Both the position numbers and the translations under genes were made by a program. Below the pieces are notes generated by a model that was not told the origin of the DNA, did no database searches, and worked only from the letters and a program-made list of their open reading frames with translations. Below, one piece after another: positions 15,040 to 19,040 of a stretch of DNA of 64,000 nt. This stretch comes from Limnochorda pilosa (GTDB lineage Bacteria; Bacillota; Limnochordia; Limnochordales; Limnochordaceae): assembly GCF_001544015.1 (NCBI RefSeq), contig NZ_AP014924.1, positions 3,286,001 to 3,350,000 of the forward strand, in the 5' to 3' direction. Every line of letters begins with the position of its first letter. Within the stretch, counting starts at the first letter, position 1.

Positions 15040-16188
15040 TCAGCGCTGGGACAGGATCTGCCTCCGCACCTCCACCAGGCGCTGCAATCCGGACCCTGTG
15101 ACCACGCCCAGGAGCTGTCCCTCCGAGACCACCAGGAGCAGCCCGCCACCCTCGCCCAGACGCCGGGCCGCCTCCAGGGCGGGCAATCCGGGAGCGACCA
15201 CCTGATGTGGCTCCAGCGGGCGGCGGGCGACCTGGACGGTGGTGGTGGACCACTCTTCCCGCCGCACCCTGCGGACCTCCTCGAGCCCCACCACGCCCAT
15301 GGGCGAGCCGTCCTGGACCACCGGGAAGGTCTCCTGCCCGTGGCGGAGGAGGTACTCCTCCACGAACCGGTCCAGGGGAAGCTCGCGCCGGACGCTGAGA
15401 AAGCGGACCTCCATCACGTCCGCCACCGAAAGGCCCCGCAGGCTCTCGGCCACCTCCACCTGTCCCTCGCTGCCCCTGGCCGCCTGGAAGAGGAACCACC
15501 CCAGGGAAAGGAGCCAGAGGCCGTTCAGCCGCGGCCCGAACAGGCCGAGTGCGAGCCCTCCGACCATCATCACCTGGGCAAAGCCCCGTCCCAGGAGACC
15601 GGCCCAGCGGGTGGCCCGCAGGAGGCTCCCGGTCCTGGCCCAGAGGAAGGCCCTCAGGATCCGCCCGCCGTCCAGGGGAAAGGCAGGAATCAGGTTGACC
15701 AGGGCCAGAAGCAGGTTCACCCAGTACAGGTAGTCGCTCAACGCCTCGAGCGCCACGCCCAGCCCGGCCATCCGACCCACCTCCTGGACCAGCCGGAAGG
15801 TGAGGGCGATGAGAAGGCTCGCCATGGGTCCGGCGACCGCGATGCGAAACTCGGCCCGGGGGCTGGGCGGCTCGCCCTGCATATGGGCCACCCCGCCGAA
15901 GATGAAGAGGGTGATCCGCATGATGCGCAGGTTGTGCTCCCGGGCCACCAGCGAGTGGCTCAGTTCGTGGAGCAGCACGCAGGTGAAGAAGAGGAGGGTG
16001 GTGACCAGGCCCAGGAGCCCGTAGAAGAGTCCGGTCAGGCCGGGGTAGTTCAGGGGGAAGTAGCCCAGGCTCAAGGTGATGCTGACCAGGGCGAAGACGA
16101 CGAGCCATGAGACGTGGATCTCGATGGGGATCCCTTGCACCCGGGCCAGGCGGAAGGATGGCACGCCGCGCCCTCCTGATCGACTCAT
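15040..16188 (-). CDS. Site-2-type M50 metalloprotease with CBS domains
   Basis: Intramembrane zinc protease of the SpoIVFB/S2P M50 family, 382 residues. The zinc motif [11 protein letters not shown] (HExxH) and the second metal motif [12 protein letters not shown] are present, within about six membrane helices (residues 20-225). A C-terminal pair of CBS repeats occupies about residues 245-375 and should bind an adenine nucleotide. ATG 16188 overlaps the guaB stop (ATGA). Substrate unknown; SpoIVFB-like pro-sigma processing is possible, but no partner such as SpoIVFA is adjacent. Confidence 0.9.
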
Positions 16189-19040
16189 CGCTCCCTCTGG
16201 TAGTTGGGAGCCTCTTTGACGATGTCCACGTCGTGCGGGTGGCTCTCCTGCACGCTTGCCGCCGTCACCCGCACGAAGCGGGCCGTCCGCCGGAGGGTCT
16301 CCAGGTCCGGCGCGCCGCAGTAGCCCATCCCCGAGCGGAGCCCGCCCACGAGCTGGTAGACCACCTCGGAGACGGGCCCCTTGTAGGGGACCCGGCCCTC
16401 GATCCCTTCGGGCACCAGCTTCCGCTCCCGCTCCTGGAAGTACCGGTCGCGGCTCCCGGCCCGCATGGCCCCGATGGAGCCCATGCCCCGGTAGACCTTG
16501 TAACGCCGCCCCTGGTGGATCTCCATCTCGCCCGGACTCTCGTCGGTACCCGCCAGGAGGCCTCCCAGCATCACCGACTCGGCGCCGGCCGCCAGCGCCT
16601 TGGTGATGTCGCCCGAGTAGCGGATGCCGCCGTCCGCGATCACCGGCAGCCCGAAGCGGGCGGCGGCCCGGGTCGTCTCCCAGATGGCCGTCATCTGGGG
16701 CATGCCCGACCCCGAGACGATACGGGTGGTGCAATTGTGGACGGCGACGCGGTCCGCGACGTACGATTCGTCCTCGTCCACCTCCAGATTGTAGACGTGG
16801 AGATCGTCCTGGACCACCCGCACGTCCTTGATGGTGACGTACACGTACCGCCCGTCGGACCACATGCCTTGCTTGACGGAGCGGTGTTCGACCGCCGGCT
16901 CTCTCAACCCCAGCTCGGCGAAGCCGTCCCTGAACCGCCGGCATGGCGCGCCTGGCAGGCGAACCGCATACATGCCGCTCCACCGCTCATGCTGCGGCTC
17001 GTACCGCTGAACCGAGGGGAAGTAGCCCAAGCGCAGGAGGATGTCCGCGACCTGGCTGGCCAATGCTGGGGAAGCCGTCTTGTAGCCGATTCTCCCACCG
17101 GCGCCGTCCCACGTACCCGCCGCCCGGAATGCCCCGATCAAGAACTCCCGAAGCAGGGGTTCGGGTTGTGCGAGAAGCTCCGGGGGCAGGCGCCTGGTTC
17201 GGGCGTTTCCTGGGATGACGGTCTCGAAGAAGCGCGCGAGGGCGTGGTTGGTCACGAGGACGGTCGTGGCCTGGCGGTGGGGTGCGTGGAGCACCGTCGC
17301 GCCGTCGTACCCGAAAACCTCCTTGATGAGGCGCATGACGTCCTCTTGATACGCCGTCTCGTCGCGATGGAACGCGAAGCGCAGCTGGCGGTCGTTCGGG
17401 AGACCCGCCGGGTGGCCTTCGGCCGCATAGTACCCGAAGAGCCGCATGAGACGTCCGTCGAGAACCACGTGGCGTCGCACGCGGTGCGCGGGGGCTGGTC
17501 GCTCGTGGGCGACTTCCCTCAGGAACCCTTCCCCTGCTTCCTGAAGAGGATCTGAAACGGTACGCAGGCCCAGGACCATGGAGCCAACCACTCTGGCTGT
17601 GGTCCCGGAGCGGTCGGCGATCTCCTGGTAGCTGAGGGTGTTCTGATTCCGGCTGGGCTTGGTCGCATGGATCCATTCCCCATCGTTCCGATACTGCGGC
17701 ACCGCATCCAGGAGGTCGAAGGTGACCTGCTTGGCCTGCACCTGTCGGATGGGAATCGCGAGGATGTCCTGGGGCTCCAGGTCCCCTGCAGGCACCCAAT
17801 CCAGCCCTCGGTGGTACTTGGGCTTGTCGAAGAAGTACTTGCCGCCGTACTTGTGCCGCGCCCCCACGGGCGCGTTGAAGTGGATCGCGAGACACGGGTG
17901 GTTCGGGGTCATCCGAAGCACCCTGGGCGAACCGTTGATGGTGAGATGCACCAGGGGACCTGTGTATGGGCGCCGGTACACCTTGGTCACCCTCCTGGCA
18001 CGGCCGCGATGGGTGATGACCTGGTCCCCTGGCACGACGTCGCAGATGGGCTTGACCGCGCCGTCGGCCATGAGGATCTCGGTTTCGGGCCCCAGGCAGA
18101 TGCTCCCCGGGCCGACACCCGCTTTGATGGCGTCGGCGCCGGCCCGGGCCAGGTCCTCCGCGCCCTGGGCGGTGGCCACGTTGCCCGCCACCACGTCCAC
18201 CCGGTCGCCGAAGCGCTCCTTCAGCCAGCGGACCGTCTCGATTACCCGCCGGGAGTGGCCGTGGGCCGTGTCGAGGATGATGGCGTCCACACCCGCCTCC
18301 ACCAGGAGCTCGGCCCGCTCCCGGGCGCCCGCGTCGGTGCCGATGGCCCCCGCCACCCGCAGGCGCCCCTTCTCGTCCTTGGCGGCCAGGGGGTACTTGC
18401 GGGCCTTCTCGATGTCCTTGATGGTGATGAGTCCCTTCAAGCGCTTCTGGCCGTCCACCAGCGGCAGCTTCTCGATGCGGTGACGGTGGAGGATCGCCTT
18501 CGCCTCTTCCAGGGAGGTGCCCACCGGGGCGGTGACCAGCCGGTCGCCCGGGGTCATGACCCGGCCGATGGGCTGCTCGAAGTCCTCCTCGAAGACCAGG
18601 TCGCGGTTGGTGAGGATCCCCACCAGGTGGCCTTCCTCGTCGGTGATGGGTACTCCCGAGATACGGTAGCGGGCCATCAGGTCCAGCGCGTCCTGAACCC
18701 GGTGCTGGGCCGAGAGGAAGATGGGGTCCACGATGATGCCGCTCTCGGACCGTTTCACCTTGTCCACCTCGCCGGCCTGGGCCTCGGGCGGGAGGTTCCG
18801 GTGGATCACGCCGATGCCGCCCTCCCGGGCGACGGCGATGGCCATGGGCGCTTCGGTCACCGTATCCATGGCGGCACTCACGATGGGGATGTTCAGCCGG
18901 ATGTTCCGGGAGAAGCGGGTCTCGGTGGAGACGTCGGTGGGCAGCACCTCCGAGTAGGCCGGTTCCAGCAGGAGGTCGTCGAAGGTGAGCCCTTCCCGGC
19001 CGAAGCGCTCGTTCCAGATCTCTTCGCGCGTGTCTGCCAT
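16185..19040 (-). CDS. guaB: IMP dehydrogenase precursor containing an intein
   Basis: Converts IMP to XMP with NAD+, the committed step to GMP. The open frame is 951 residues, about twice the usual 490, because an intein occupies residues 315-769; the two exteins add up to 496 residues. N-extein: TIM-barrel start [14 protein letters not shown], a CBS pair at about residues 95-215, and [12 protein letters not shown]. The junction is GVGPGSI | intein | CTTRIVSG, so Cys770 is both the IMPDH catalytic cysteine and the +1 splicing nucleophile. C-extein: DGGIRYSGD, the flap RGMGSIGAM and the loop [11 protein letters not shown] 19040 has GAGGAGGGC upstream. Without splicing the enzyme would lack an intact active-site loop. 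Confidence 0.96.
16734..18098 (-). other. Intein within GuaB, with LAGLIDADG-type endonuclease domain
   Basis: 455-residue in-frame protein intron (GuaB residues 315-769). Block A is [13 protein letters not shown] with Cys1, and block B is [13 protein letters not shown] with the TxxH pair. Blocks F and G are [15 protein letters not shown] and VAVHN, ending in His-Asn before Cys+1. This is a complete class 1 splicing set. Between them, FGYYAAEG (about 535-542) and [10 protein letters not shown] (about 633-642) correspond to the two LAGLIDADG helices; the second has Ala where the catalytic Asp/Glu is expected. An HTH-like stretch [20 protein letters not shown] lies at about 471-490. Confidence 0.95.

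Follow-up and report, generated by a model that had tools for sequence, protein, structure and literature searches.

The window (the whole 64,000-nucleotide stretch of Limnochorda pilosa DNA analysed here) carries on its minus strand a guaB gene, read from position 19040 to 16185, whose 951-residue product, an IMP dehydrogenase (IMPDH, GuaB), is interrupted at residues 315-769 by a predicted intein. Upstream of guaB lies a DUF1015 gene (19113-20405, minus strand), and downstream (14072-16215, minus strand) are genes for a CBS-domain M50 protease (site-2-type) and for a pterin-binding enzyme resembling dihydropteroate synthase. No mobile-element genes were seen among the guaB neighbours in the window. 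The precursor gene has the following features, each given with the evidence for it.

16185..19040, minus strand: guaB precursor gene, 951 codons plus stop (open frame; TIGR01302; sole IMPDH of the genome)
18099..19040, minus strand: N-extein, GuaB residues 1-314, holding the CBS pair and ending in GVGPGSI (CBS and IMPDH Pfam matches)
18060..18098, minus strand: splicing block with the Cys1 nucleophile (alignment)
17877..17921, minus strand: splicing block with T64-x-x-H67 (TP.H in 15/15 same-site precursors)
17415..17441, minus strand: LAGLIDADG motif 1 (block C), LFGYYAAEG, catalytic Glu kept as Glu227 (alignment)
17169..17213, minus strand: block D, with Arg where most relatives have Lys (KR) (alignment)
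17115..17141, minus strand: LAGLIDADG motif 2 (block E), LIGAFRAAG, catalytic Asp gone versus LxGxxRGDG in relatives (alignment)
16734..18098, minus strand: the whole intein, 455 residues, from C1 to HN455 (alignment; Foldseek match to TliVMA, PI-PkoII and PI-SceI)
16734..16796, minus strand: splicing blocks F and G, ending in His454-Asn455 (HN invariant in 15/15)
16731..16733, minus strand: +1 Cys codon, the IMPDH catalytic Cys of CTTR (invariant in 15/15)
16185..16733, minus strand: C-extein, 182 residues, beginning CTTRIVSG (90% identity to the C-terminal part of the contiguous GuaB of congener G001)

Residues 1-314 and 770-951 join to a 496-residue IMPDH (314 + 182 residues) across the seam GVGPGSI-CTTRIVSG, and the junction in the precursor reads GVGPGSI/C...HN/CTTRIVSG. 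The exteins match TIGR01302 (IMP_dehydrog) with 601 bits (E 1e-180; cut-off 481.5 bits) and include the catalytic CTTR, placing the host protein in GuaB. The coordinates, the 951-codon frame, the limits of the intein, the 496-residue product and the junction agree exactly with those of the first-pass annotation, which had left the minus strand unstated, and its identification of the +1 residue as the catalytic Cys of IMPDH was confirmed at the junction. The insert matches Pfam LAGLIDADG_3 (E 2.7e-10) and, at scores under the Pfam gathering scores, Intein_splicing (E 4e-7) and Hom_end_hint (E 2e-5). It has the residues of a class 1 intein (Cys1, block B T64-P-N-H67, a C-terminal HN and a +1 Cys), and it is inserted exactly in frame at a conserved site. 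Splicing blocks A, B, F and G and LAGLIDADG block C are present as first annotated, but the claim of a full class 1 block set does not extend to block E, which has lost its acid (LIGAFRAAG versus LRGDG), or to block D, which has R for K.

The congener (G001) encodes an uninterrupted GuaB that aligns without a gap to the joined exteins over 479 residues at 89% identity, and this empty site confirms the limits of the insert. The source genome, estimated to be 99.95% complete, is assembled as a single contig (3,817,036 bases). An IMPDH profile search of it returned this guaB and one weak match, which fell below the cut-off and was rejected as a second intact guaB; the intact copy elsewhere that the first-pass annotation had named as a refutation is absent from the genome by this profile. 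IMPDH catalyses the step that commits a cell to guanine nucleotides, and what follows it in the pathway is retained, the GMP synthetase gene guaA being present in one copy. Because this is the only IMPDH in a near-complete genome that also keeps guaA, de novo GTP synthesis very probably requires splicing of the precursor. The unspliced precursor should be inactive, as had been expected of it from the outset, with the active-site loop of the sole GuaB broken by 455 residues, and we infer that splicing takes place and is constitutive. There is next to no probability that the insert is instead a non-splicing remnant or an artefact of assembly or annotation; the same observations speak against a sequencing artefact, which had also been raised earlier. 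The 951-codon frame is open with all splicing residues intact, the one-contig genome has no other IMPDH and keeps guaA, and 14 same-site homologues occur in independent assemblies.

Those homologues came from two kinds of search. About 85,000 species genomes were scanned with a DNA pattern encoding G-x-GPG-S-I, then C, then a codon with T at its second position, and profile searches were run with six inteins as queries (the window's and five from the pattern scan). Uninterrupted C[IV]TR variants make up most of the pattern-scan matches listed, and at least six loci are true inteins. By profile, the intein is present in 1 of 73 genomes of its own class, in 10 of 154 genomes of another class of the same phylum (that of G371; frames of 935-960 residues) and in 4 of 162 genomes of an acidobacterial class; a search of the acidobacterial phylum, a thin sample, gave 1 of 396. 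In all, relatives of the insert occupy exactly the same point in at least 14 further bacterial genomes among those sampled. The junction SI/C...HN/CTTR is identical in 15 of 15 precursors (the window's and 14 others), and Cys1, TPxH, HN and the +1 Cys are invariant in all of them. Pairwise identity among the 13 aligned copies ranges from 31 to 97% for the inteins and from 58 to 99% for the exteins, and the other inteins are 40-57% identical to that of the window. A very diverged same-site intein in G520 (L144, G520:C156:8743-10092) is approximately 40% identical to the window's, has lost both LAGLIDADG acids, and sits in a loop reading GQGPGSI instead of GVGPGSI. Many IMPDHs among the pattern-scan matches listed, mostly of Anaerolineae and other Chloroflexi, have CITR or CVTR at the active site in place of CTTR, which alters the DNA target that this intein family would require. 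Viral carriers of the same-site allele were considered and rejected: the pattern scan, run on viral contigs, matched one locus, a CLTR variant with no interruption, and the viral relatives matched by the intein profile sit in other genes.

An AlphaFold model made from six inteins, of moderate confidence (mean pLDDT 68.7, pTM 0.65), has a Hint fold, and its best Foldseek matches are the endonuclease-bearing inteins TliVMA (7qsu, E 7e-19), PI-PkoII and PI-SceI; a profile search of PDB sequences gave the same nearest solved structures. The VMA inteins (TliVMA 7qss/7qsu and PI-SceI) and PI-PkoII share the Hint fold and a LAGLIDADG domain with the window intein, but they reside in other host proteins and are only 12-15% identical to it by Foldseek. 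For VMA-type inteins, endonuclease versions both active and inactive are known (PMC8966425). GyrB and ribonucleotide reductase inteins are the same kind of element in other hosts and at other sites, with distant similarity only (E 2e-12 for the window intein versus the GyrB insert of the same genome). In genes of the GyrB and ribonucleotide reductase types the source genome carries four or more intein-like inserts, and it is thus intein-rich. Its GyrB (G000:C1:6631-7977; L134, L153) holds a LAGLIDADG intein ending in CCHN/TDADVDG, and another intein occupies the equivalent GyrB point in G505 (L148). Two adenosylcobalamin-type ribonucleotide reductase genes (G000:C1:747007-748041 and 1584579-1587443; L150, L151, L152) have intein-like inserts, one of them apparently two.

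The nearest known system by host is IMPDH-1, a fast, phage-type, metagenome-derived split intein with Cys1 and a +1 Ser (PMC11766414; also PMC7090010). The first-pass remark that IMPDH is not known as a common intein host is reasonable where contiguous inteins inserted here are concerned; IMPDH does, however, serve as a host to split IMPDH-1 (PMC11766414), in the same loop two residues earlier. IMPDH-1 and the window intein have in common an IMPDH host, the same catalytic loop and class 1 chemistry with Cys1, and the Hint N-part of IMPDH-1 can be aligned with the window family (hhalign probability 94%, approximately 30% identity over 96 columns). IMPDH-1, however, is encoded by two genes, its N fragment without an endonuclease, whereas the window intein is contiguous, 455 residues long and LAGLIDADG-bearing; and the IMPDH-1 site (GIGGG/.../SICSTR) lies two residues upstream with a +1 Ser, whereas the +1 residue of the window intein is the catalytic Cys. 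By site, by its contiguous form and by its +1 residue, the window intein is therefore not an allele of IMPDH-1. Copies 86-95% identical to an IMPDH-1 query sequence were found on four viral contigs (L165, L166, L167 and L168), with the junctions SIRVGIGGG/CFVPGT and, in a second frame, VHN/SICSTRLQTG, and the viral IMPDH halves are several hundred bases to approximately 1 kb apart. We take this viral split intein to be IMPDH-1, for which splicing rates from Carvajal-Vallejos et al. are reviewed in PMC11766414.

LAGLIDADG acids have been lost in 3 of the 13 aligned same-site copies, with the splicing residues kept. The window copy retains the motif 1 Glu and has RAAG for RGDG in motif 2; in G504, motif 1 has changed from AEG to AGG and motif 2 from RGDG to RGGG; and G520 has LSAG and RGQA, respectively. 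Double-strand cleavage by LAGLIDADG enzymes takes both acids. With D changed to A in motif 2, the window copy does not have an acid in both motifs, and by its sequence the domain is classed as LAGLIDADG-derived and not as an active endonuclease; given the loss of the block E acid, the homing endonuclease is probably dead. It is unlikely that the window enzyme is still active, or a nickase, and that this copy is still homing, even though the reading frame is open, block C retains Glu227, and RAAGTWDG has an Asp a few positions further on: the conserved acid position is held by Ala, the preceding Gly has changed too, the block D Lys has become Arg, and active-looking relatives retain RGDG. Acid loss with the splicing residues kept is the pattern expected if homing decays while splicing stays essential.

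Silent sites differ between groups of relatives in how the intein and its host gene have diverged. In G502, G503 and G505, which have intact endonuclease motifs, silent differences are at least 3-fold more frequent in the extein than in the intein; between G505 and G502, 13 of 440 amino-acid-identical codons (3.0%) are silently different in the intein versus 46 of 457 (10.1%) in the extein (p 1.9e-5). Outside these three the intein evolves faster than the host gene, and the G516/G517 pair is reversed (121/333 in the intein versus 77/450 in the host gene, p 1.5e-9), these tests between related pairs not being independent of one another. The simplest reading is that one allele spread recently among G502, G503 and G505 and that G516 and G517 carry different alleles. 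The closest relative of the window copy is only 57% identical to it. The intein is present in 1 of 2 genomes of the genus and in 0 of 71 in the remainder of the class, a distribution that favours a gain over repeated loss, and the window intein was probably gained by horizontal homing. The lower GC3 of the intein (0.83 versus 0.93-0.95) was rejected as proof of recent transfer because most relatives show a similar drop. Main groups are broadly alike in the intein and extein trees, G520 excepted, and co-conversion tracts flanking the insertion site were not clear in any pair compared.

In class 1 splicing, an N-S shift at Cys1 is followed by transesterification to the +1 thiol, Asn cyclisation and an S-N shift, and in IMPDH the catalytic thiol attacks C2 of IMP. 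We consider it highly likely that the insert in the window is a contiguous class 1 intein whose LAGLIDADG homing endonuclease has decayed, and that it is fixed in the one guaB gene. The Hint domain of the precursor would fold and Cys1 would undergo the N-S acyl shift, the +1 Cys (also the IMPDH catalytic nucleophile) would attack to give the branched intermediate, and Asn455 would cyclise as the exteins join into a normal 496-residue IMPDH. The element would then be a mobile parasite whose target is conserved and which probably arrived by horizontal homing, and it may persist with a probably inactive endonuclease because an imprecise deletion would ruin the active-site loop and abolish GTP synthesis.

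The first-pass suggestion that splicing could be conditional on redox state or metals found no support in the aligned inteins. The window copy has extra cysteines, of which Cys69 is unique to it, Cys19 occurs in 3 of 13 aligned copies and Cys386 in 2 of 13; Cys19 and Cys69, the extra cysteines nearest the splicing blocks, were rejected as conserved redox cysteines. No conserved redox cysteine pair was present among the 13 aligned same-site inteins, and no sequence feature pointing to a splicing switch was seen in the window intein. Inteins generally occupy conserved functional positions (PMC2814812; PMC5874633), so the placement in GuaB is typical and is by itself no evidence of regulation. 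It is improbable that the intein acts as a post-translational switch allowing IMPDH activity, and hence GTP, only where temperature, redox state or metals permit. In favour of this reading, the precursor has no intact active-site loop and the only guaB is affected, the thiols of Cys1 and the +1 residue are chemically redox-sensitive, and conditional splicing is known in other inteins (PMC5874633); set against this, there is no conserved extra cysteine pair, the patchy distribution and the empty site of the congener fit a parasite better than a regulator, and endonuclease decay in three copies is the usual homing cycle. We also rate it as quite improbable that, in genomes with a decayed endonuclease, this intein is retained in GuaB to gate the supply of guanine nucleotides post-translationally; if it were so, IMPDH activity would directly report whether cellular thiol chemistry permits the splicing that deposits the catalytic Cys.

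In the literature searched, mostly open-access and without the original reports on IMPDH-1, no description was found of an intein placed immediately ahead of the catalytic Cys of IMPDH. As far as searched, the GuaB same-site inteins are a new insertion-site family of a well-known kind of element and not a new kind of system. They give IMPDH a second site of intein insertion, the family spans two bacterial phyla, and active-looking and decayed endonucleases coexist within it. The splicing +1 nucleophile and the catalytic nucleophile of the host are a single residue. By the usual argument, any mutation that let the target escape homing would also kill the enzyme, and this argument is testable here in very clean form. 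In an organism with a single guaB of this kind, purine auxotrophy may also allow splicing, or inhibitors of it, to be selected for.
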